A stretch of 64,000 nt of DNA from Leptodesmis sichuanensis A121 (GCF_021379005.1 NZ_CP075171.1:4526001-4590000), one strand, 5' to 3'. Counted from the first letter of the stretch, positions 5,116 through 19,665 are shown. The notes: generated by a model not told the origin, from the letters alone. Made by a program: numbers and translations.

Positions 5116-5586
5116 ATGGAAAAACAGACCATTCAACCGATTGTAGAAAATTTATGGTGGGTGATTCCGGGTCAACTAGCAGGGGTACGGATGCCGACTG
5201 CAGAAGAGTTAAGTGAATTACAACAGGCAGGTGTGGGAGCGATCGTTTCTGTCTTTCATGATGACTCTAATTTAGGTCTGTACGAACAAGCGGGACTTCC
5301 TTTTATTTGGCTTCCCATTGCAGTTGATTTTTATCCTACTGAAGCTCAGCTGCAAGAATTCCTCGACTTCGTTGATCAGCAGAATGAGTTAGGTCACGGT
5401 GTTGCAGTTCATTGCAGTACGGGCAGACACCGAACCGGCACTATTCTGGCGGCTTATCTAATCCGTACTGGTTCGTCTTGCGAATGTGCGATGCAAACAA
5501 TCCTGGCCGCAAATCCTAATATTAACCTGCCTGAATCTCAATCCAATTTTCTTCAATCGTTAGCGAAAGGAGAAGACCTGACATGA
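5116..5586 (+). CDS. Cys-dependent protein-tyrosine-phosphatase-like protein in ars operon
   Basis: A 156-residue protein of the dual-specificity/tyrosine phosphatase fold. The active-site loop HCSTGRHRTG gives the CX5R signature with Cys100 and Arg106. A candidate general acid precedes it (VDFYPT region), but this is uncertain. It is not a low-molecular-weight ArsC, in which CX5R sits at the N-terminus, nor a glutaredoxin-type ArsC. The operon has no classical arsenate reductase among its visible genes, so a reductase-like or arsenylated-intermediate role is possible but inferred. It overlaps the next gene by an ATGA junction, implying translational coupling with the flavoprotein. Confidence 0.8.
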   Translation: MEKQTIQPIVENLWWVIPGQLAGVRMPTAEELSELQQAGVGAIVSVFHDDSNLGLYEQAGLPFIWLPIAVDFYPTEAQLQEFLDFVDQQNELGHGVAVHCSTGRHRTGTILAAYLIRTGSSCECAMQTILAANPNINLPESQSNFLQSLAKGEDLT

Positions 5587-6965
5587 CTCGACTTCTGATT
5601 ATTGGCGGTAGTGACGCAGGAATTAGTGCTGCATTACGAGCAAGAGAGTTAAATTTGACGGTTGAACCAACGATCGTCATGGCTGATCACTTTCCCAATT
5701 TCAGCATTTGCGGGTTGCCATTCTTTATCAGTGGAGAAGTGCAAGACTGGCGTAATCTGGCGCATCGTAGTGCAGAAGAGATCAGCCAGCAAGGCATTCA
5801 GGTGTGGATGAATCACTGGGCAGAGGCGATAGATCCAATACAGAAAACTGTCACCGTCAAAGACCCTAATGGGCAACAGCACATCCTCCACTACGACAAG
5901 CTGATTTTAGGAACTGGTGGCACGTCGGTTTTGCCTCCCTTGCCAGGATTAAATTTGCCTGGAGTGTACCCCCTGCGTTGGATGACGGATAGTTTTGCGG
6001 TTCAGAAGCATGTGACTGAACGATCGCCGCAACATGCGCTCATTATCGGAGCAGGCTACATCGGCTTGGAGATGGCAGATGCCTTGAGCTTACGAGGACT
6101 GGAGGTGACGCTAATCCAGCGATCGCAGTCAATCCTGAAAACAGTCGATGCAAGCATCAGTCAACTTGTGCAAGACGAGTTGCAACGGCGGGGTGTTGAA
6201 GTGATGACTGGTGTGAGCGTGAGTCAGATTGAACTAAAGGGTGATCGCTTGCTTGTTTCTGATGCAAAAGGATTTCAACGAGTTACCGATTTAGTGATCG
6301 TTGCGGTTGGGGTTAATCCCTCAACCCAACTGGCTCAAACGGCTGGAGTTCAAACAGGTGTTCGTGGCGCAATTCAAGTCAATCGCCGCATGGAAACCAA
6401 TATCCCAGACATTTATGCAGCAGGTGACTGTGTGGAAACCTATCACCGCATTCTACAGCACAATACTTATTTACCGTTAGGAACGACAGCGCATAAACAA
6501 GGACGTATTGCCGGAGAAAATGCAGTGGGCGGCGATCGCGAATTTGAGGGGTCACTGGGAACGCAAGTTGTTAAAGTGTTTGATGTGGCAGCCGCACGAA
6601 CGGGTCTGCACGATGTAGATGCGATGGCTGCTGGATTTAACCCCTTAACGGTAGAAACAGAAGCGTGGGATCACAAAGTCTATTATCCAGGAGCACACAA
6701 GCTACGAATTCGAGTGACGGGAGATCGTACATCAGGTCGTCTCCTCGGTGCTCAAATCGCCGGCCACTATCATGGTGAAGTTGCCAAGCGCATCGATGTT
6801 TTTGCTACGGCTCTCTTTCACGGTATGACAGTTGATGCTATGAGCGACCTTGACCTCAGCTACACCCCGCCGCTCGGTAGTCCTTGGGATGCGATACAAA
6901 TTGCGGCTCAAGGGTGGTCAAGGCAATTTTCAGAGTTTTCTAAGGTAAGTCATTCTATATCTTGA
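5583..6965 (+). CDS. CoA-disulfide-reductase-like FAD/NAD(P)H oxidoreductase
   Basis: A 460-residue flavoprotein of the pyridine nucleotide-disulfide family, single-cysteine branch (CoA-disulfide reductase / NADH oxidase). Visible elements in order: FAD-binding GGSDAGISAALRA near the start; the active-site FSICGLPFF with Cys43, the same position as the catalytic cysteine of S. aureus CoADR; GTGGTSVLPP; the NAD(P)H-binding IIGAGYIGLEMADAL; the second FAD motif DIYAAGDCVE; and a C-terminal dimerisation domain. It is translationally coupled to the phosphatase and is the last gene of the ars series. It probably reduces a thiol or persulfide carrier; the arsenic link is by context only. Confidence 0.85.
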   Translation: MTRLLIIGGSDAGISAALRARELNLTVEPTIVMADHFPNFSICGLPFFISGEVQDWRNLAHRSAEEISQQGIQVWMNHWAEAIDPIQKTVTVKDPNGQQHILHYDKLILGTGGTSVLPPLPGLNLPGVYPLRWMTDSFAVQKHVTERSPQHALIIGAGYIGLEMADALSLRGLEVTLIQRSQSILKTVDASISQLVQDELQRRGVEVMTGVSVSQIELKGDRLLVSDAKGFQRVTDLVIVAVGVNPSTQLAQTAGVQTGVRGAIQVNRRMETNIPDIYAAGDCVETYHRILQHNTYLPLGTTAHKQGRIAGENAVGGDREFEGSLGTQVVKVFDVAAARTGLHDVDAMAAGFNPLTVETEAWDHKVYYPGAHKLRIRVTGDRTSGRLLGAQIAGHYHGEVAKRIDVFATALFHGMTVDAMSDLDLSYTPPLGSPWDAIQIAAQGWSRQFSEFSKVSHSIS

Positions 6966-7087: not shown

Positions 7088-10000
7088 CTAGAACATGGAT
7101 AACGCTTCATTCTCCTGAACCACAGGGCCGCTGATGCGATAATCTTCTGGGTCTTCGCCAATCTCGCCGACAAAGGAGAAGGAGCGGATCAGGTTGAAGA
7201 TTTCGTGGCTCATGTCGTGCAATGTCAGGTTGCGCGGGAGGATCTCGGTTTGCAGGGCATCGTGTTGCAGTTTTTCAAACTCCCGTTGCAGATAGCGATC
7301 GCCCTCTGGCAGTTGGTAGTTCCTGAAGAAGTCCCGCAGCGGACTTTCTAAATGGAGGAAGTAAGACATTTGCTCGGCCTGTTGACGGGTACGCTGCTCT
7401 TCAAAGCAGGTCTGGATATCCTCAAAGATGCCCCGCATGAGATTGGGGTAACGGCCTGAAAGCGCCAGCAGCGCCAGGATTGCCTGTTGCACCTGTAGAC
7501 TGGGCTTGGTGCCACGGGTGCGGCAGACAATTTTGAACAGCTTATAAACATTAGTCAGGCGCTTGATCGTGCGGGGAGTCAGGTCTACCTGTCTACAACA
7601 CTCCAGTAGCATATTGAATTCCTGACGGCTGAATTCGCTAAATTTCGCTCCGCCAGTAGCACTGTCTTGCAGCACGACCTGAGCACGCAGGTAGGTTTCC
7701 AGTGTATTGGCCATGATCGGACGTACCCGGTAGGGGATTTGGATAATTTTTTCCAGGTAGTCGGTGCCGGAGGGGCTACCGTGGCGCAGCAGCACGCCTT
7801 TGTAGAACTGCTCTAGGGCGCGAGTAATGTAGCGCTCGTCGATCGCCAGTACGGCAATAAACAGGGGCGTTTTGACCAGCAGTTGCACGGCTTCGAGGAC
7901 TTGGACGACCCGACGGGGGGGACAGCGATCCAGGTCGTCGATATACACCACAACGCGGGCTGGCCCTCTGGGGAAAACGGCTTTCAGGTCATTCAGTTTA
8001 TGAATATATTCCTGACTGCCGGGTGGGGGTGGCAGCAGTCGATAACTGAGGTTGGTCAGATCCTCTTTCACTTGATGCATTAAGCCAAGATTCTTATCGT
8101 AAATGCCGTCCTTAATGCGATTGTCAACAAACTCCTGAAGTGAGGCGTATACATTGTCGGGCACCGCTTCCCGCGCTTCCTGCACCTGTTTTTCCAGTTC
8201 CTGTGCCTGTTGAGTCAGCTTCTCAATTTCAGCCTGAAGGGTGGCAATACGTTCTTCCTGATGCTTTTGGAATCGTTGTGTCTCTCGCTTAAGCACCGTC
8301 TGGGAATCTTTGATTTGGGTTTCGCAATCCAACAACGCTTGTTTGGCCTGGTCATACCACCGCTGTCCCGCCCGCCAGAGTTTTTGTGCCATGCCAATGG
8401 CCGGGAGGAGGGGGGCGATAAAGGCAACCAGTTGGGGCACGATCGCACCAGGAAGCTGCCAGGCAATCAGCAGAGGGGCGACCACTGACGCGGCTGCAAA
8501 GCCACAGAAAATAACAATCAGGGCCAGGTTTTTGCGCCCCCATTGCTTGAACACTTTGCAGGAGAAATTATAGGGTTTGCCATCGGCATCCGTGCCCTCC
8601 AGAATGTTGGAGATCAGCAAGCGCAGGTCTCCGCCGAACTTCCTGAGCGATTCAGCGGTCAGGTCTGGGGGTAAAAGGCTCGTAATTTGTTGGCTAATGT
8701 CTCTAAAAGCGTCATCTCCAATCCGTTTTCGCAGCAGCACTCCAGAAACAATCAGGATTTGATTCACCTGTCCCACTAACTCTTGTACCTCTGGTTCCTG
8801 AGATTTTTTTAATTGGGTTTTGGCTGTTTCTAATTGCTCCTGTTTCTGTTTCAGGCGATCGTTGACACTCTGCAAAGCCGTTTCTTGTTTATGCAACTCC
8901 TCCGTTGCCGCCTGTTTAACAACGTCCCGTGTTTTCCAGAGCAACTCGTCAATTTTTTGCTGCTGGGCTGGATCAAGATTTTCCAGATCAGATTTCTGCA
9001 AGACCCGTTCCAGGAAATAGTCTCGTTCTTCATCCCGGACTTGATAAAGCACCTTCCAAATATCGCCGTAGGGAGAGTTCTTAGCGTAGGGATCGATACC
9101 GTTATCCCTAAAAAACTTGAATAGCTTTTGCTCTAGAGTAATTTGACGATTTAACTCAAAGAAAATGGTTTGCATCAAGCTGGCCCACAGGTCCGACTTG
9201 GCAAACGTCCAGGCATCGAACTTGATCTGGTAAATGTGACCCACGTAAGGCGAGAGTTTTTCGTAGTTGGGGTTTTCGTTCCAGGCTTCGATCGGGTGAA
9301 CCGGACGACTGCGAATCGTGGTCATCTGAGCCTGCATCAGGTGCATGATGTAAGACTTGCCCCCACCCCAGCCACCGAGAATGCCGACGGCCATGGGTGG
9401 CTCCAGATCGCGCATCAGCAATAACCCCGACAGGGCGTTAATTTCATTTTTGAGGTCAAGCAGGTCTCGATCCTGGGCGGCATCATTGCGCAGGGTGCCC
9501 CCTTGCAGGGCATCACGGTAGCCTCGCGCCAGCAGGAAGAGGGCACGATCGTACAGTTCTCTTGAAATCAACCGACCCAGGGCTAACTCCCGCTTAACTT
9601 CGCGGTTGATCCGCATGGGCAGGTGGGGAGCCAGGGCCAGCAGGATGTCACGACGCTCTATTTTGATTGCAAAAGTTTCTGTTTCGTTGTTGCGGTCTTC
9701 AGTGGTTTCAGAGGATTGGTCGATGTGAAGCGATTCGGCCAGTTTGATGATTTCGGGGAGTAGCTCTGGCATGTCGATCGCCAGTTGACTCAGTTGCTCA
9801 ATTTTGTGAACGCGGGATTCCAGGTTCCGCGCATCGGCCAGGGCAGCATTAAAAATTTCCGATTCAGGAAACGTTTGAGCCAGGGCGACACGGGCACTGA
9901 CCCGATGGTAGTGATCGCGAATATCACCAATCACATTAATGGCTTCAATCCGCTCTCTGGCTTCAAGACTTGGGATCAGCCGCTGTAAATATTCAGCTTG

Positions 10001-13000
10001 CAGATAGGGATTTTCGTTCAGTTCCCCGATCCACCGTAAAGCCATTATTTGCAACCCATGGGTTCTGGAACCCACAGGATGTCGGGCGATTTCCACCAGG
10101 GCTTCAGCTTGGTAATACTTCCCCTGAATTGCTTCAAGCGAGCCAAGAGGCTCTGCGATAGTGGTGGTATCGGAATTGCCAGCTAAGGCTAATTGAATTT
10201 TGACCTTGAGTACGGCGCGGTAATCATCTCCCTGGTAGTGCTGAAGTAACTCGTTAACCTGCTGGGGAAAGTCAGGTGCTAAGGCTATCAGCACCTCGGC
10301 TTGATACCCAGGATCTGCAAGGTTATAGATAGTTTCAAAAAATGTTGCTTGCGTTGTTTCTGCAGAGTGTTTGAGCAGGGGAGCTAATCGACTAAAGATA
10401 TCGGAAACCGCTCGTTCATAAGAGAAGTCATCCCGTTTGGTAGCACCGAGTCCAATGGTTAATGGAATTAGCCTGTTGTAACCGTCTTGATAGAATTGGT
10501 TCTCTGGCTCTGCTGATTGTGTTGCGGTTAAGGTTGTTTTTTGTTCGGCTTGGGTGATGAGAGCCGTTGCGAGAGAACTTAGTACTCTCGACTGAAGTTG
10601 AGGCAGTGGCAAGGTTTCGACCAGCCTCAATACCGCATCGAAGCAGTCAATCTCTAAAAAGGGTGTGAGAGCTTCCAGGGCTGAGGTACGGTGGTAAGGA
10701 TTCTGGATGGATCCCTCAACTAACTTGATAGCCTCTGAAAACTGGGCTGAGGGGAGATAGGGCATCAGATTGCTGAGGGTTTCGGCACGAAAGCGATCGT
10801 CTGTGATTTCAGTCTCAATTAACTTAAGTACAGCGGGAAATCGACCGGGAGGGAGCCGGGGAATGAGAGCGCTGAGGAATTTGACTTTGTCTTCGTTGCC
10901 AGACAGGTGCTGAACAATTTCCAGGGCGACCGGATGCCGGTTTGCAGGTAAAAGCAAAAGGAAGTCTTCCGGGAAGCGGCTGACAGGAGAAGCCAGAATT
11001 ATAGCGGCTTCAGCCTGATTCAGAGCGGCCTCTGTAAAGAGCTTGAGAGTTGCTGGGGTAAGTTGTGGGGCGAGTTGTGGGGCGATCGCCATTAAATCGT
11101 AGGAATGCTTCATGGCTGAAACGGCAGTAAGCCCCTGTTGAAGTAAGCCATGTGCTTGTTGGAGTAACTCCTGCTGTTGTGATTCAGGTAGACGGGGTGC
11201 AATCGCACCTAAGCCCATTGCCCTGTAGAGTGACTCCTCAATGCCTTGCGCGATGGCACGGGCTTGTTCGAGAAGGTCTACCGAAGATTTGGGCAATTGA
11301 GGAGCAATTGCGATTAAAGCAGTAGCCTTGTTCTGAGAATCATCGAGAGCTTGAATAAGGTTAAGAGTTTTGCGGAAAAGGTGAGTCGCCGATTCGGGCA
11401 GGCGAGGCGAGATCGCCCTCAAGGCAGCGGCTCTATCGGATGACCTCATAGCAAATTGCAATGCGTTAGCTACGTTAGTGCCAATAGATTCCACTACAGT
11501 TAAAGCTTGTTGAAGCACGTCAGCTTTTTGCGACTCTGGCAAGCAAGACGCAATCGCGCTCAAGGCGACGGCTTTGTATTGTGAGTTGTCAAGTGATTGA
11601 GCGGAATTGAGAGCTTGTTGCAGCAGATCGGTAGCAGATTCTGGTAGGCGGGGCGCGATCTCGCTTAAAGCTTTAGCTCTGCTGGATGAGTTCTGAATTG
11701 ATAACGCAGTAGTAAGAGCTAGATAGAAAATGCCAGGTTGTTGCAATTTAGAAAGGTAGGGGGCAATCTCACTTAAGGCTACAGCTTTGAAGTATGGATC
11801 CTCAAGAGATTGAGCCAAGATCAATGCTCGTTGGAGTACTTCAGACTGTTGTGATTTAGACAGGCAGGACGCGATTGCGCTTAAAATAGTGGCTTTGTCA
11901 AAGGGATCCTTAAAAGATCGAGCCACAATAAGAACCTGATGGAGCAGGTCTGGGGTAAATTGAGATAAGTGAGATGAGATTGCACCTAAGGCAGCGACTT
12001 TAGCATAGGAATTTTCAGGGGACTGAGCTAAAAAAAGAAATTTTTGCAGTAGTTCTGGAGCAGATTCAGGTAATGAGGGAGCAATCGTGCTCAAGGTATC
12101 AGCTCTGGGGAAAGAGGGATAAAATCCATGCTCGACTATATCTTCAAGGGATTCAGCCAGAGTAAGAGTTTGCCGGAGTACCTCCTGGTGTTGTGATTCA
12201 GGTAGGTGAAGCGCGATCACACTTAAGGCTTTAACTCTGTCAGATACATTTTCAATAGAAAGAGCGGCAGTAAGAGATTGATAAATCACCTCAAGCTGTT
12301 GTGATTCGGGCAGGTAGGACACGATATCCCCTAGGGCTTTGGCTTTAGAGCCTGAGTCTTCAATGGATTGAGCGACAGCGAGGGCTGTTTGAAGTGCGTC
12401 CTGCTGTTGAGATTCGGGTAGGTAGGGCGCGATATCCCTTAAGGCTTTGGCCTTGTCAGATGCATCCTCAAGAGATAGAACAGCGGTAAGAATTTTTTGG
12501 AGAAGGTCTGTCGCCGATTTGGGCAGATGGGAGACAATTGCGGTGAGAGCCTCAACTTTGGCGGATGAGCCAAATAATCCTTCCCATCCATGTGTGTCGA
12601 TGGACAGAGAAAGAGTAAGGGCTTGTTGAAACACCTCCTGTTGTTGTGATTCCGGTAAGTGAGGGGCGATCGCACTTAAGGCTTTGACCTTGGTGGCTAC
12701 ATCCTGAATATCCTGAGCAGCGGTGAGGGTTTGTTGGAACACCTCTTTTTGTGATTCTGGCAGGTAAGGGGCGATCTCGCTTAAGGCTTCAATTTTGGTA
12801 GATGTTTCCTCAATCTCCTGAGCAGCGGTGAGGGCTTGCTGGAACACCTCTTTTTGTGATTCTGGCAGGTGAGGGGCAATTTTCATTAAGACTTCAGCTT
12901 TTTTATTTGGCCATTCGATCCCCTGAGCCGCGGTGAGGGCTTGTTGCAGCACCTGCTGTTGTTGTGACTCTGGCAGGTGAGGAGCAATCTCGATCAAGGC

Positions 13001-13204
13001 GTTCGCTTTGGCAGATGGTTCTTCAATATTTTGAGCAGTGGCAAGGGCTTCTTGGAAAACATCTGCGGGGGAGGGCAATAACTGAGAAGCTAATTCAACC
13101 AGTGCTTTCACCTTCTGCAAGGAATCAGGGATGCGATCGATCTCCGCCAGGCGATCGTCCACCCAAGTTCGTGAGTCTACTTCCCCTGTCTTTTCTTCAT
13201 TCAT
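7088..13204 (-). CDS. Giant KAP-family P-loop NTPase with N-terminal helical-repeat solenoid
   Basis: A 2038-residue protein. The ATG at 13204 is preferred over the TTG at 13219. Residues about 30-700 hold some 18 tandem repeats of 34-47 residues (core near 35) with consensus KALxxIAPHLPESxxxxVLQQALTxAQSIE, that is, two-helix HEAT-like units; more degenerate units continue to about 1180. The NTPase domain follows: Walker A GILGGWGGGKS (Lys1283), a coiled coil near 1430-1470, a hydrophobic hairpin near 1555-1605, a second coiled coil near 1625-1680, then Walker B VYIDDLDRCPP (Asp1756-Asp1759). Membrane segments between Walker A and B, and a DDLDR Walker B, are hallmarks of KAP NTPases, a family including phage-exclusion PifA and animal Kidins220. 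It is convergent with the ars operon, with no obvious partner gene. The cellular function is unknown. Confidence 0.88.
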   Translation of the reverse strand: MNEEKTGEVDSRTWVDDRLAEIDRIPDSLQKVKALVELASQLLPSPADVFQEALATAQNIEEPSAKANALIEIAPHLPESQQQQVLQQALTAAQGIEWPNKKAEVLMKIAPHLPESQKEVFQQALTAAQEIEETSTKIEALSEIAPYLPESQKEVFQQTLTAAQDIQDVATKVKALSAIAPHLPESQQQEVFQQALTLSLSIDTHGWEGLFGSSAKVEALTAIVSHLPKSATDLLQKILTAVLSLEDASDKAKALRDIAPYLPESQQQDALQTALAVAQSIEDSGSKAKALGDIVSYLPESQQLEVIYQSLTAALSIENVSDRVKALSVIALHLPESQHQEVLRQTLTLAESLEDIVEHGFYPSFPRADTLSTIAPSLPESAPELLQKFLFLAQSPENSYAKVAALGAISSHLSQFTPDLLHQVLIVARSFKDPFDKATILSAIASCLSKSQQSEVLQRALILAQSLEDPYFKAVALSEIAPYLSKLQQPGIFYLALTTALSIQNSSSRAKALSEIAPRLPESATDLLQQALNSAQSLDNSQYKAVALSAIASCLPESQKADVLQQALTVVESIGTNVANALQFAMRSSDRAAALRAISPRLPESATHLFRKTLNLIQALDDSQNKATALIAIAPQLPKSSVDLLEQARAIAQGIEESLYRAMGLGAIAPRLPESQQQELLQQAHGLLQQGLTAVSAMKHSYDLMAIAPQLAPQLTPATLKLFTEAALNQAEAAIILASPVSRFPEDFLLLLPANRHPVALEIVQHLSGNEDKVKFLSALIPRLPPGRFPAVLKLIETEITDDRFRAETLSNLMPYLPSAQFSEAIKLVEGSIQNPYHRTSALEALTPFLEIDCFDAVLRLVETLPLPQLQSRVLSSLATALITQAEQKTTLTATQSAEPENQFYQDGYNRLIPLTIGLGATKRDDFSYERAVSDIFSRLAPLLKHSAETTQATFFETIYNLADPGYQAEVLIALAPDFPQQVNELLQHYQGDDYRAVLKVKIQLALAGNSDTTTIAEPLGSLEAIQGKYYQAEALVEIARHPVGSRTHGLQIMALRWIGELNENPYLQAEYLQRLIPSLEARERIEAINVIGDIRDHYHRVSARVALAQTFPESEIFNAALADARNLESRVHKIEQLSQLAIDMPELLPEIIKLAESLHIDQSSETTEDRNNETETFAIKIERRDILLALAPHLPMRINREVKRELALGRLISRELYDRALFLLARGYRDALQGGTLRNDAAQDRDLLDLKNEINALSGLLLMRDLEPPMAVGILGGWGGGKSYIMHLMQAQMTTIRSRPVHPIEAWNENPNYEKLSPYVGHIYQIKFDAWTFAKSDLWASLMQTIFFELNRQITLEQKLFKFFRDNGIDPYAKNSPYGDIWKVLYQVRDEERDYFLERVLQKSDLENLDPAQQQKIDELLWKTRDVVKQAATEELHKQETALQSVNDRLKQKQEQLETAKTQLKKSQEPEVQELVGQVNQILIVSGVLLRKRIGDDAFRDISQQITSLLPPDLTAESLRKFGGDLRLLISNILEGTDADGKPYNFSCKVFKQWGRKNLALIVIFCGFAAASVVAPLLIAWQLPGAIVPQLVAFIAPLLPAIGMAQKLWRAGQRWYDQAKQALLDCETQIKDSQTVLKRETQRFQKHQEERIATLQAEIEKLTQQAQELEKQVQEAREAVPDNVYASLQEFVDNRIKDGIYDKNLGLMHQVKEDLTNLSYRLLPPPPGSQEYIHKLNDLKAVFPRGPARVVVYIDDLDRCPPRRVVQVLEAVQLLVKTPLFIAVLAIDERYITRALEQFYKGVLLRHGSPSGTDYLEKIIQIPYRVRPIMANTLETYLRAQVVLQDSATGGAKFSEFSRQEFNMLLECCRQVDLTPRTIKRLTNVYKLFKIVCRTRGTKPSLQVQQAILALLALSGRYPNLMRGIFEDIQTCFEEQRTRQQAEQMSYFLHLESPLRDFFRNYQLPEGDRYLQREFEKLQHDALQTEILPRNLTLHDMSHEIFNLIRSFSFVGEIGEDPEDYRISGPVVQENEALSMF

Positions 13205-13288
13205 GCCAGGCTGCCCCAAGCGACGGAAATACTGCCAATGATCAGATTTTGCCCGTGAAAAGCGACTTTTGTCAGCGACAATCTTAAC

Positions 13289-14627: not shown

Positions 14628-14807
14628 CCAACACTGAATCTGCCTTCATTAAACCATTCTTAAGATTTTCAAGAAATCAGGAGGCAAGAATCTGATTCCT
14701 GCGGTACTCCTCCCTTTTCATGTCGGAGCAGAAAGTTGGGAGGGAGAGGTCTGCCAAATGACGTTAATTGGGTGAAATCCCTCTGGTAATAGCGGGCTTC
14801 TCCCCTG

Positions 14808-15257
14808 TTGCAGTTTGTGGTTGCGATCGACGATAGAGGTATATGCATTGCCCATTGGGTAGACGAAACTATGGATTACCTCTACTACCTCGCCAATACC
14901 AGTCTTACCTTGAGAGTGGTTGAGTATCTTTACAGTGGCCGGCTGCCCGTTCAATTCCTGACTGTGATTCATCAGATTGACGGCTGGATCGTCCGCATCA
15001 AAATGAGAGAGTACCTGGAGCCGCATCAACACGGAGACTTTCAGGCATTTATGAATGAGTTGGGCGTTCCCTATACTCCAGATATTCGGGTTCAGATGGC
15101 TCTGTGGGGATTGGAAACGGGTCAATCTCCAGTCGATGTGATGCAACGCTATCAGGTAGCGATCGTGTCTCATGGCTTGCCCGATCGCGAAGAAATCGAA
15201 GAGTTCCGCAGGCAGTTTGTTCGTGGCTTGGGTTACTGTCCCGAAACGTTAGCTTAG
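14808..15257 (+). CDS. Unrecognised soluble protein beside ccmO
   Basis: Up to 149 residues; no family recognised. An in-frame stop at 14790 limits the 5' end. Possible starts are TTG 14808, GTG 14817 or ATG 14874, so the N-terminus is uncertain. The protein is hydrophilic, with a YLYSGRLPVQFLTVIHQIDGW segment near the middle and an acidic/basic helical C-terminus (DREEIEEFRRQFVRGL). Base composition and codon use resemble the neighbours, and the opposite-strand frame looks like a shadow, so this frame is favoured. Its stop overlaps the convergent ccmO stop by 4 bp. The position suggests no role in the carboxysome operon, as transcription runs the other way. Confidence 0.6.
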   Translation: MQFVVAIDDRGICIAHWVDETMDYLYYLANTSLTLRVVEYLYSGRLPVQFLTVIHQIDGWIVRIKMREYLEPHQHGDFQAFMNELGVPYTPDIRVQMALWGLETGQSPVDVMQRYQVAIVSHGLPDREEIEEFRRQFVRGLGYCPETLA

Positions 15258-16261
15258 GGCCGACGCGGATATTGGGCACGATGCCGCTGGCGGATTGCCT
15301 TTGGTTCCGGTTGAGCCAACCTTGACACCGATTCATCAGGAGACGGTTCCGGGTCTACTTCTGTGATTACAGGAATCGCGTCCGTTTCCAGGCTTTCCAT
15401 TGCTTCTGGTTGAGCCAAATCCAGAGTTGGCTCTGACTCAGCCAAAGCAGGTTTAGAGTTTTCCCTCAATTCTTGCAGCGGCATAACCTCCAACTCGGGT
15501 TCGGGTTGGGTCAGGTCTGATAAAGGACGCACCCCTTCACTCAAAGCTAATTCCTGCTGCTCTTGCTTCAATTCCGGTAAGGCGACAACCTCCTTTTCCG
15601 TTTCCTTAACCGATAGCGGAATCCGCAACGGTTGCATCTCTTCGATCCAGCAACTGGCCAACGGTAGAGTTTGATCCAGATCTTCCAGGGGACGGGGCAC
15701 CAGCATTACCGCATGGAGTTCCCCAATCCGTTCAGCCTCCACCATCCCGGCATCCAGGGCCACAGCGACATTGGCCACGGAACCCCGCACGATCGCCGTA
15801 CACAGCCCCGCCCCGATCGTTTCATAAGCCGCCAATACCACATCTGCAGACTTGAGCATGGCATCGGCAGCACCCACCATTGCCGGAAAGCCACGAGTTT
15901 CCAGTAAACCAACGGCCTGATTGCTCAACTTACTATGTCCCCGGCCAGTCGCTAATTGGGCCAACCGATTGCCGATCGGCAACACAACTTCCAGATTGGG
16001 CATGGGACGGGGAATTACCAGCGTTGATAGCTTCTGGCCAAATTGTTCGGCTCGTTCGGCTCCTTCCTGAACCGCCAACCGGACATCGGCAACAGAACCC
16101 CGGACAATCGCCGTACAGTGACCGCTGCCAATCTTCTCATAACCCACCAGCGTCACCCCGGAGGACTTCAGCATGTGGTCGGCAATTCCCACGATCGCGG
16201 GAAAACTCTGGGCAGAAACCAACCCCAAAGCGGTATCAGTAAAATCTTCGCGTCGGCTCAT
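15254..16261 (-). CDS. ccmO: Carboxysome shell protein CcmO (tandem BMC), extended C-terminus
   Basis: A 335-residue protein with two bacterial-microcompartment (BMC) domains, about residues 10-95 and 112-197. Each has the SxxFPAxVGxADxMLKS entry and an xGxGxCTAIVRGSVA core, forming a pseudohexameric trimer unit of the beta-carboxysome shell. Residues from about 200 to the end form an acidic, Pro/Glu/Leu-rich tail (PELKQEQQELALSE, LTQPEPELEVMP) that ends in a basic cluster (RQRHRAQYPRRP). This tail makes the protein longer than the CcmO proteins I know. It is the last gene of the ccm series, separated from ccmN by a 262-bp purine-rich gap, so it may have its own promoter. Confidence 0.93.
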   Translation of the reverse strand: MSRREDFTDTALGLVSAQSFPAIVGIADHMLKSSGVTLVGYEKIGSGHCTAIVRGSVADVRLAVQEGAERAEQFGQKLSTLVIPRPMPNLEVVLPIGNRLAQLATGRGHSKLSNQAVGLLETRGFPAMVGAADAMLKSADVVLAAYETIGAGLCTAIVRGSVANVAVALDAGMVEAERIGELHAVMLVPRPLEDLDQTLPLASCWIEEMQPLRIPLSVKETEKEVVALPELKQEQQELALSEGVRPLSDLTQPEPELEVMPLQELRENSKPALAESEPTLDLAQPEAMESLETDAIPVITEVDPEPSPDESVSRLAQPEPKAIRQRHRAQYPRRP

Positions 16262-16523
16262 TCAATCTAGAAGGGCGAGATCCGGTAGTTACTCTTATCC
16301 TAACTGCAATTCACTGACCCGGAAGTTCCCTGAGCACTTCCAGAAACTGGGAAGGCAGAAGGTAGCTGGGGAAGATGGGCAGGGTGAGGAAGGTAGAGAA
16401 GGCAGTGAGAAACAATTCAATATTCTAAATTCTCCCCATCTCCTCTATCTCCCCTCCCTCCACCCAATCCCCGATCGTTAAAATGGGCTTTTCCCTCTGC
16501 CTTTTTCCTTCTGCCCTCCTAAC

Positions 16524-17159
16524 CTAGTCCTCCCAGGGGTCATCGGTAGATGGCAATGGCTCAGGAGTCGGCGGTGGCGGAGTCGGTTGACGATTGGGAA
16601 AGAGTTTGACCAGCAGTTGATTCACATACACCTGGCCGTAAACATTCATGCCAGAAGCCTGAGTTTCCAGCTTGGAGTTAGATGAATTTTCAGTTTCAGT
16701 CAGCGGTGCAGCAGGTAGGGAATTCTCCTGTCCCTCTACGGTGGCTGCCTCGGTGGGGGGATAGATGACGGTATCCGTGGCTTTCAACTCTTCAGGGTGA
16801 CGGCTAGGATCGCCAATCAACGATCCGGGAGGAATCATCTGCCCCCATTCCACAGAGCCGTTATAAATGGTAGTGGCGGCTCCAATACAGGCATTGGCCC
16901 CGATTTTGACCGCTCCCACCAGCAGCACTTCTGCGCCAATGTTGGCTCCTTCCCCCACTTCCAACGTGCCGCTGTAGGCGTGCAGAATTGAGCCAATCCC
17001 AATACAGGCTCCAGTTTTAATGACAATCCGACTGTTTGGATCGGCCTGAATCAGCACGCCAGGAGCGATCGCAACCCCCGCCTGAATCGTGACATCCCCA
17101 CTGATGTAGTAATGAGACGTACTGACAGGTCGCAGTTGCAAGGATAGCGGCAAGGACAT
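16524..17159 (-). CDS. ccmN: Carboxysome assembly protein CcmN
   Basis: A 211-residue protein linking the CcmM/Rubisco core to the shell. Residues about 15-125 are a left-handed beta-helix of hexapeptide repeats (GDVTIQAGVAIAPGVLIQ; IGANACIGAATTIYNG) that binds the gamma-carbonic-anhydrase-like domain of CcmM. A variable linker follows, then a short amphipathic encapsulation peptide (NVYGQVYVNQLLVKLF, about residues 174-189) that recruits CcmK. The terminus is Pro-rich. It lies 87 bp downstream of ccmM on the same strand. The domain order and the peptide make the identification clear. Confidence 0.93.
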   Translation of the reverse strand: MSLPLSLQLRPVSTSHYYISGDVTIQAGVAIAPGVLIQADPNSRIVIKTGACIGIGSILHAYSGTLEVGEGANIGAEVLLVGAVKIGANACIGAATTIYNGSVEWGQMIPPGSLIGDPSRHPEELKATDTVIYPPTEAATVEGQENSLPAAPLTETENSSNSKLETQASGMNVYGQVYVNQLLVKLFPNRQPTPPPPTPEPLPSTDDPWED

Positions 17160-17246
17160 GGAACCCCCTCTATGGAGTTAAAAGTGATGAATCGTACTCA
17201 ACGAGAGCGCTTAGAACGCTCAACTTTCAACTCTCACAACTCCTGA

Positions 17247-19313
17247 TTAGCGACCGTTCGGCTGCTGAATAATGGTTTCGACCACCCGGCGCTTCGCCTT
17301 TGGATCAATCCCAATCAGCCGCACATACTCTCCGGCATGGTCATGCATAAACGCATTGAGAGCAGAGAGCACTTCTGAATCCCGTCCCGTTGGCAGCGAA
17401 CCACCACTTTGCCAGGAACTGGTCTTAAAGCGACGCTCATCGGCATACTCGGCTCCAATTCGATAGCCTTGAGCTAACAACTGACGGACTTGTTCAGCCA
17501 CAGCCCCACCGACAGCCCCATTACTACTTCCCTGTCCTGCTGCAGGTGGAGTATAGGGAGAGGAAGGAGCATTATAGGTTGTACCGGAGTAACTGCTTGC
17601 TGGAGCCGCAGTGCCACCCGACTTCCCATTGGGGCGGTGAACAATTACTTCTGCCACCCGACGTTTTGCTCTGGGATCCACACCGACCAGCCGTACATAG
17701 TCTCGATCGTGCTCTGCCACAAACGCTTGCACAGCCGCCATCACTTCCGCTTCCCGACGACCCGGAACCGTCATGGCACTCTGCCAGGAACTGGTCTTAA
17801 AACGCCGTTCATCGGCATATTCCAGGCTGATCTGACAACCCTGGGCCAGCAACTGACCCACCTGTTGCATCACATCCTGACCCACACCGCCGGCAGCGGC
17901 ACCAGACTGAGCCGGAGCTGCATATCCAGCAGCAGAACCGGGAGCCGCCGTTGCATAAGTGGAGCCATTGCTGGAAGCTGGAGAACCCTTACCGTTAGGA
18001 CGTTGCACAATCACTTCGGCAATCCGCCGTTTGGCTTTCGGATCAATCCCAATTAAGCGCACGTATTCCCCTGGGTGCTCTTTCAGACAGGCTTCAACTG
18101 CCGCCAGTACATCAGATTCGCGTGTGGCGTGGATAGGGGCACAGCTATGCCAGGAACTGGTTTGGAAGCGGCGTACATCTGCGTGTTCGGTGCCAATCCG
18201 TGCGCCCTGAGCAATTAACTGCCGTACCTGGGCAACTACCTCTGCACTCAATCCGCCCGATCCATAGCTGGAGGCACTGGAACCGCCATAGCTGGCCGTC
18301 GCTCTGGGAGATGCATAGCTGCTGGAACTATAGCCAGAGGTTTGAATCGCCTGACCGGGCTGATCGCCAGGACGTTGAATAATTGTTTCCAGAACTCGCC
18401 TCTTCGCTTTCGGGTCAATGCCAATCAGACGCACGTATTCGCCTGTGTGTTCTTTCAAACAGGCTTGCAATTGCGTCAGTACGTCTGACTCCCGCGTGGT
18501 TTGAATCGGGGCACAACTCTTCCAGGAACTGGTCTGGAAGCGGCGATCGTCCGCATGTTCCGTCCCAATTCGATAGCCCTGGGCTAACAGTTGCCGCACC
18601 TGGCTGACTACATCTGTATCCATACTCCCTTCCTTTGTCCGGCTTTCTGAACCGCTTTCACCTGTTAAATTCGTTACTGTCAACTCACTCAATGCCTCTG
18701 GAACCGATGGGGTGTAAGCCCTGCTTTCAGGTCGGTGGTATCCCGATCGCACGCTATCCTGAATGCCAGCAATATGAGCCGCAATCTGAATATCGGACTC
18801 CTGAACATCTGGCAGCCGATCGGCCTGCTGCTGATCGGTAATCATGGAACCAGACGGAATAAATTTACCGGGCGGAATTTCCACGTCTTGAATTAAGACA
18901 TGCATCATCACAATGCAATTGTGGCCAACCCGGGCATTAAAGACCGTAGACCGAAACCCAATAAAACAATTGTCCCCGATGTATACCGGCCCATGAATTA
19001 AGGCCATGTGGGTAATCGAGGTATTATCCCCAATCCACACCGAATAAGCCTGACCATCATCCCCAATGACCCGGCCCTGCTCCAACCCATGAATGACCAC
19101 CCCATCCTGAACTTTGGATTGGTTCCCAATATGAAAAGGATTTCCCTCATCGGCCCGGATCGACGTTCCCGGTGCAATCAGCACGTTGGCACCAATCCGC
19201 ACATCTCCGATCAGGTTGGAAAATGAGTGAATCGAAGCCGTTTCGTGAATTTTAGGTTCGGTCAGAGGTTTCGACCAAGGGATTGGAGGAGTCCCAGAAC
19301 TACGGACTGCCAT
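17247..19313 (-). CDS. ccmM: Carboxysome scaffold CcmM (gamma-CA domain plus four SSU-like modules)
   Basis: A 688-residue scaffold that condenses Rubisco in the beta-carboxysome. The ATG at 19313 is chosen because upstream codons overlap non-homologous sequence. Residues about 20-200 form the gamma-carbonic-anhydrase domain, with histidines in VVIHG and [10 protein letters not shown] that fit zinc ligands. Four Rubisco small-subunit-like modules follow at about 231-315, 358-441, 479-563 and 603-688, joined by Ser/Ala/Gly-rich linkers. Modules 1 and 2 each have a Cys pair 18 residues apart (Cys267/285, Cys391/409), matching the spacing of the redox disulfides in S. elongatus; module 3 has one Cys and module 4 none. 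No Cys follows the carbonic anhydrase core before module 1. An internal start at 18623 should give a short form. Confidence 0.95.
18619..18640 (-). promoter_or_regulatory. Internal ribosome site and ATG for short-form CcmM
   Basis: On the minus strand the sequence AAGGAAGGGAGT directly precedes an in-frame ATG at 18623 (Met231 of CcmM). Translation from it gives a 458-residue product holding only the four SSU-like modules, the counterpart of CcmM35 in S. elongatus. The Shine-Dalgarno match is strong. Short-form production from an internal start is established for CcmM; at this exact codon it is inferred. Confidence 0.75.
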
Positions 19314-19365
19314 ACGGTCAACTCTCCAAACTGAAAATGAAAGACTGGAACAGGGCGATCGGCAC

Positions 19366-19665
19366 TCACCACTGTTCCCGCTTGCTATATAAGAGACCAG
19401 TTTCAACGCTCACTGTGTCAATAATGGCAATCACAGCGGCATCAACGGGGCGTTGTTCACTGCCTGACACTTGGCGAGCAGCGCTGCCGTGGCTCACGAG
19501 AACCCACTCGCCAATTCCCGCTCCGACGTTATCGGCTGCGACCTCGTACCCTGGTAGAATCTCGCCATTATCATCCAATAGTTGTAAGACGAGGAACTTG
19601 ATTCCGCGAAGACTTGGCTCCTTTTGGGTACTGGTAACAGTGCCAAATACTCTGGCAATCTGCAT
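19366..19665 (-). CDS. ccmL: Carboxysome vertex protein CcmL
   Basis: A 99-residue pentameric vertex protein (EutN/CcmL, BMV fold) that caps the corners of the icosahedral shell. It has the N-terminal [20 protein letters not shown], the central [20 protein letters not shown] glycine-rich loop and [12 protein letters not shown]. The gene starts 6 bp after the ccmK stop, and ccmM begins 52 bp downstream, so the three are cotranscribed. Length and motifs are normal for the family. Confidence 0.95.

Follow-up and report, generated by a model that had tools for sequence, protein, structure and literature searches.

A solenoid-KAP NTPase gene of Leptodesmis sichuanensis A121: a candidate membrane-anchored, NLR-like receptor with exchanged modules

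What may a cyanobacterium do with a single protein of 2038 residues, in which a long array of helical repeats precedes a KAP NTPase? The gene in question, called here the solenoid-KAP gene, lies in a stretch of 64,000 nucleotides of the Leptodesmis sichuanensis A121 genome (GCF_021379005.1 NZ_CP075171.1:4526001-4590000; the window). It is the sole KAP match in the 5.35 Mb genome, and the ~35-residue repeats are confined to it as well. Its closest homologue resides in Synechococcales M55_K2018_004 (G078 below), a metagenome-assembled genome (MAG) from a different cyanobacterial family. The protein is probably a single-polypeptide, membrane-anchored, NLR-like receptor involved in conflict or defence. 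This view builds on the domain layout, the modularity of the family, lateral transfer, mosaicism and a conserved hydrophobic hairpin, all established by sequence comparison. A wider proposal, which we advance tentatively, is that a mobile cyanobacterial family of such single-gene receptors exists, in which a recognition solenoid and a membrane/coiled-coil cassette are independently reassorted on a constant ATPase core. The features discussed are the following.

7088..13204, minus strand: solenoid-KAP gene, 2038 codons, ATG at 13204
7111..13234, minus strand: DNA similarity to the G078 homologue, which stops at the gene edges
11126..13117, minus strand: 18 clear ~35-residue repeats, residues 30-693 (repeat profile; AlphaFold2 helical hairpins)
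12728..12832, minus strand: one 35-residue repeat unit missing from the G078 homologue (DNA flanks ~99-100% identical)
9497..11125, minus strand: degenerate solenoid part, residues 694-1236, with a conserved junction at ~1101-1236
9965..10684, minus strand: second exchanged block, residues 841-1080 (47% of amino acids shared with the G078 homologue; the blocks on either side share 97-99%)
7547..9448, minus strand: KAP P-loop NTPase domain, Pfam span, residues 1253-1886 (Pfam; AlphaFold2 model)
9353..9376, minus strand: Walker A, GGWGGGKS, residues 1277-1284 (G1280, G1282 and K1283 invariant in 62 sequences)
7985..9157, minus strand: exchanged cassette, residues 1350-1740, with long helices and the membrane hairpin between Walker A and B (breakpoints in three homologue pairs)
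8417..8521, minus strand: predicted transmembrane hairpin, residues 1562-1596 (hydropathy)
7922..7939, minus strand: Walker B, DDLDRC, residues 1756-1761 (invariant in 62 sequences)

The original prediction, made from the window sequence, had described a giant KAP NTPase fused to about 18 repeats, with Walker motifs flanking a hydrophobic hairpin, and all these components were found at the expected places. The gene is one intact open reading frame (ORF) devoid of internal stops; translation could alternatively begin at the TTG at 13219 (ORF 7088..13219, minus strand). Pfam assigns the C-terminal domain to KAP_NTPase (PF07693; E=1.4e-36, 126.7 bits vs a cut-off of 20). No other Pfam domain is significant, DUF7365 (15.9 bits) being below its cut-off, and neither NB-ARC/NACHT nor ankyrin matches were found by Pfam. 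Hydropathy maxima (Kyte-Doolittle) at residues 1562-1580 and 1578-1596 predict the hairpin, and a hydrophobic segment occurs at this position in 19 of the 19 relatives examined. Because none of the KAP variants examined lacks a hydrophobic segment between the two Walker motifs, the membrane segment seems part of a constant design; transmembrane segments inserted in the P-loop domain reportedly belong to the definition of the KAP family by Aravind et al. (2004). In the AlphaFold2 model of the KAP part (predicted local distance difference test, pLDDT, 82) a long helical insert separates the strand following Walker A from the Walker B strand. The closest solved fold is RdrA of RADAR (Z 16.1, root mean square deviation 4.9 over 343 residues, 12% identity), followed by ORC/Cdc6 AAA+ proteins, tied with RdrA, and by the NRC4 resistosome (Z 13.3); a search by sequence retrieved no solved KAP structure. 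Among PADLOC profiles the protein matches QatA (5.6e-18) and PifA (3.3e-12). The best PifA stretch spans profile positions 182-312 of 720, and the QatA score (73.2 bits vs an equivalog cut-off of 600) fails as a full-length match.

The N-terminal array was analyzed with a profile derived from its own repeats, which detects 18 units spaced 35-36 residues apart, plus three spacings of 44-47. Autocorrelation over residues 1-700 is strongest at lag 35, where it exceeds the mean by 5.3 standard deviations. In an AlphaFold2 model computed from ten sequences, residues 31-1230 fold into an unbroken series of helical hairpins (pLDDT 81), in support of the alpha-solenoid that was to be looked for in residues 1-1250; since the hairpins reach residue ~1230, the solenoid is longer than the originally noted repeats. 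The best structural matches of the model are solenoids of the HEAT type, among them mTOR, CAND1 and karyopherins, with E values as low as 1.5e-9, and part of the array matches by sequence one solved protein, 3zpj (TON_1535; 4.6e-5). The notion that the array had expanded recently holds in part. The units are only 60-80% alike at the DNA level, so the array is not freshly expanded, but the number of units is still changing, because the G078 homologue, with flanks ~99-100% identical, differs by exactly one 35-residue unit. Copy number thus varies by whole units. A stand-alone solenoid is encoded in another genome (L107:8356-11034, G086), where a protein of 893 residues consists nearly entirely of 27 repeats of this type (~50% identical to those of the Leptodesmis protein), with no credible other domain.

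Some cyanobacterial NB-ARC proteins have a C-terminal arm made of repeats 37-52% identical to those of the Leptodesmis protein. Such arms are found in a caspase-NB-ARC protein (L115), in two trypsin-NB-ARC proteins (L114, L108), and in proteins featuring NB-ARC alone (L105, L109, L111). Cyanobacterial receptor ATPases of two distinct classes, KAP and NB-ARC, therefore have one repeat module in common. Because the C-terminal arm is the ligand-reading, or sensor, position in STAND receptors, a sensing role may by analogy be assigned to the solenoid.

The KAP core identifies a modular, mostly cyanobacterial family, in which, as judged from the sequences, the core is constant and the N-terminal module variable. 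Solenoid-KAP proteins include, in addition to the Leptodesmis protein, G078/L126, L125, L087, L133, L127, L130, L142 and L128; two more (L129 and L143) are cut by contig ends. In other members the core is joined to WD40 repeats (L096-L098, L100, L101, L103, L122, L124, L141, L173, L185), caspase (L095, L099, L167), TIR (L123), PNP_UDP (L093), PG_binding with a weak Macro match (L092), EAD7 (L144 and L168, in Anaerolineae/Chloroflexi) or GH25 (L189), and weak trypsin and CARF matches were noticed in L187 and L162. The PNP_UDP_1 phosphorylase fused to KAP in L093 (8159-11347; G189; the same place as L138, Leptolyngbya sp. PCC 7375) matches a PADLOC effector profile (PN-superfamily), and the protein is possibly a nucleotide-depleting KAP effector. 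The presence of caspase, TIR, PNP and EAD7 in KAP relatives, and of the same repeats in caspase- and trypsin-NB-ARC proteins, strengthens the case for the defence or alarm role that had been regarded as possible.

In the tree of KAP cores the main solenoid-KAPs form one clade (100/100), the WD40-KAPs another. A solenoid-bearing Acaryochloris protein (L164), the module of which is partial and near a contig end, clusters with TIR, caspase and CARF forms. The starred branches of the tree therefore require at least two separate joinings, or changes, of the solenoid. Core relatives (E<=1e-20) are present in 34 of the 390 class genomes sampled, the solenoid form in one of 42 family members. In-frame stops were found in several KAP relatives (L089/L128, L088, L091, L104/L181). 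In Okeania sp. SIO3I5 (L142:10650-12068) an IS605 OrfB/TnpB-type gene splits a solenoid-KAP gene within its KAP part. In Phormidium sp. FACHB-1136 (L087:12952-18690) a solenoid-KAP gene is directly followed by genes for a MACPF-jacalin protein and a Peptidase_M15/GH19 protein, after which comes another copy of the solenoid-KAP gene, L088, which contains in-frame stops. Such a loss-prone, patchy and mobile pattern is typical of conflict genes.

Comparison with G078 revealed both lateral transfer and mosaicism. The G078 homologue is flanked by different genes at an unrelated locus. DNA identity is ~99% over residues 61-780, falls to 52-60% over 841-1080, returns to ~98% over 1141-1320, falls again to 41-53% over 1381-1740, and rises to 83-87% over 1741-1920 and 91-94% over 1921-2038. 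Other window DNA with a G078 counterpart is 68-79% identical and matches other G078 contigs (queA is 67% identical at the protein level). Blocks ~98-99% identical, set against 68-79% for the remaining DNA and unrelated flanks, argue for recent transfer and recombination. Differences at fourfold sites along the gene, in blocks whose borders slightly differ from the above, are 0.02, 0.62, 0.07, 0.76, 0.39 and 0.05, and two blocks, 841-1080 and 1350-1740, are saturated with change. The max-chi2 statistic peaks at residue 1351 (219.9 vs <=35.9 in 200 permutations). Rapid divergence of the insert was ruled out for this pair, and exchange is favored, because fourfold-site differences jump from 0.07 to 0.76 across one border.

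The same border recurs elsewhere. FACHB-1136 and CCT1 break at residue 1349 (131.8 vs <=26.3 in permuted data); the cores of this pair are 90% and 97% alike, the inserts 28%. ULC186 and CCT1 break at the same insert border. Breakpoints at ~1349-1351 and 1740 are thus found in three homologue pairs, showing a membrane-insert cassette swapped at fixed borders within the AAA+ domain. Because inserts remain 55-97% alike in WD40-KAP pairs whose cores are just as similar, such swaps seem to occur mainly in the solenoid clade. The search for parental alleles of the divergent blocks was negative, block identities to the remaining homologues being similar.

In the model we propose, the N-terminal alpha-solenoid would bind an invader or non-self protein, the target being plausibly phage or non-kin. 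The KAP AAA+ domain would then bind or hydrolyse ATP and assemble into a ring; ring formation is suggested by the RdrA-like fold and by the reported QatA heptamer or octamer (PMC13279940). Assembly would be coupled to the membrane by the coiled-coil/transmembrane insert that separates Walker A from Walker B; this insert could either be the effector, by perturbing the membrane, or provide a platform for one. Output via the insert may, by analogy, also apply to Tmn (PMC11846954). The gene would travel alone between cyanobacteria, solenoid and membrane cassette being reassorted by recombination. If the combinatorial proposal is true, these genes would represent a bacterial immune or self/non-self receptor repertoire, diversified at the membrane gate as well as at the sensor. 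If an immune or allorecognition receptor is involved, natural cassette swaps already part sensor from membrane output, making the mechanism of KAP defence directly testable.

Several observations weigh against a defence receptor. Neighbour clustering of 68 loci identified no gene recurring beside KAP, except in genomes that are close relatives or as members of common families (GGDEF/EAL, for example); this agrees with the earlier suggestion that the function lies in one polypeptide, yet denies the receptor a partner. No recognisable defence island surrounds the homologues, which stand alone among varied housekeeping genes. By Pfam the Leptodesmis protein has no fused effector domain, though relatives have them. 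The likeness to RdrA, and the ring inferred from it, is at the fold level only, at 12% identity. The sensor is not always the part that varies, because the solenoid is the near-identical part in the comparison with G078. Finally, a patchy distribution and a mosaic gene are also compatible with other roles in conflict, such as allorecognition or action against mobile elements, or with a stress module that can be transferred. The original prediction had set confinement to housekeeping surroundings, combined with a lack of membrane localisation, against itself: homologues do lie among housekeeping genes, but this is only half of the case, because the membrane hairpin is conserved.

Could the protein rather be a housekeeping or stress scaffold similar to Kidins220, the solenoid collecting clients at the membrane and the ATPase remodelling them? 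The order of repeats, KAP and membrane hairpin, the resemblance of the solenoid model to the HEAT scaffolds CAND1, karyopherins and mTOR, and a chromosomal locus amid housekeeping genes fit this idea. Yet we consider it rather unlikely: a solenoid missing from most relatives, a gene recently transferred, mosaic and often broken, and KAP relatives bearing TIR, caspase and PNP modules all weigh against a scaffold. Diverged insert forms lying on near-identical NTPase cores, with common borders, may alternatively be viewed as compatibility types of an allorecognition or kin-discrimination receptor of filamentous cyanobacteria, in which a mismatch would trigger cell death through the membrane, comparable to the NLR-like incompatibility of fungi. 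A comparison with heterokaryon incompatibility has been published for such modules in multicellular bacteria (PMC10907252), but this KAP core is also found in relatives outside cyanobacteria, and we regard this specific role as unlikely. That the mosaic is an assembly artefact might be suspected because G078 is a MAG. This is improbable, since the break at ~1349 is also seen in FACHB-1136/CCT1, the records of which are not titled MAGs, the identical blocks still show scattered differences, and the flanks of the contig agree in composition with other contigs of G078 rather than with the Leptodesmis genome. Contamination of the G078 contig is, on the same grounds of composition, unsupported.

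The surroundings of the gene deserve a comment. One flank carries genes for a dual-specificity phosphatase (PTP), a pyridine-nucleotide oxidoreductase (Pyr_redox) and an SBF transporter; the phosphatase ORF overlaps the start of the pyridine-nucleotide disulphide oxidoreductase ORF by a few bases, in an operon-like fashion (5116-6965). On the other flank lies queA, adjoined by the carboxysome genes ccmO, ccmN and ccmM, the latter with RuBisCO small-chain-like repeats (15254-19406), in an order retained in G009. A small nearby ORF (14721-15173) has no Pfam match, and neither Rfam nor tRNA searches identified RNA features in the window. Vicinity to queA and ccm genes, and QatA being a KAP protein of a system with a QueC-family enzyme (PMC13279940), might hint at a part in a local queuosine or carboxysome block, a QatABCD-like link or a role in CO2 concentration. 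However, queA and its small upstream neighbour are retained in 26 of the 29 relatives listed, all lacking the solenoid-KAP gene, ccm synteny continues in G009, and the G078 homologue lies elsewhere, its queA and ccm genes being on other contigs. Moreover, queA differs from queC, and no QatB/C/D was seen at the locus. Synteny in relatives without the gene and the unrelated G078 locus rule this hypothesis out, and we give it virtually no credit. Prophage and plasmid origins were also rejected: viral contigs gave distant matches only (22-40% identity), many limited to the Walker B part, and no plasmid locus reached 80% query coverage.

How does the solenoid-KAP protein, as a probable defence or conflict receptor, relate to known systems? 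The claim of an undescribed system was too strong. The KAP NTPase Tmn, which has two transmembrane segments, blocks phages by a mechanism described as unexplored (PMC11846954), QatA acts in phage defence (PMC13279940), and KAP proteins replacing STAND NTPases in conflict systems have been published (PMC8195603). KAP proteins are also known from EAD/bDLD counter-invader and diversity-generating retroelement (DGR) conflict systems (PMC8195603, PMC10907252). The Leptodesmis protein shares with these latter the use of KAP in place of a STAND NTPase, and EAD7-KAP relatives exist, but its locus features neither an EAD match nor a multi-gene operon. The likeness to the defence NTPases Tmn (compared by description only), PifA and QatA lies in the KAP core with Walker A and B; in contrast to QatABCD, no qatB, qatC (QueC) or qatD (TatD) is adjacent. 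No ~1200-residue solenoid is known from Tmn, PifA or QatA. No description of the solenoid-KAP class, of a repeat module shared with NB-ARC or of an exchanged membrane cassette was found in the searches made of open-access literature, which is not proof of absence. RdrA, an AAA+ ring with a large helical insertion (PMC9994260), is the closest solved fold to the KAP model, in a tie with ORC/Cdc6, but lacks this solenoid, and no RdrB deaminase neighbour was seen at the window locus. The architecture also calls to mind animal proteins. Kidins220/ARMS has an N-terminal repeat scaffold ahead of a KAP domain that contains membrane segments; the Leptodesmis protein differs in having a solenoid modelled as HEAT-like rather than ankyrin, and in being bacterial, recombining and laterally transferred. 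STAND/NLR receptors, including L115, L114 and L108, have in common with it a family of ~35-residue repeats beside an assembling NTPase, and variable modules on a constant NTPase. It differs from them in that KAP replaces NB-ARC/NACHT, the repeats are N-terminal, no protease is fused, and a membrane insert is lodged within the NTPase itself.

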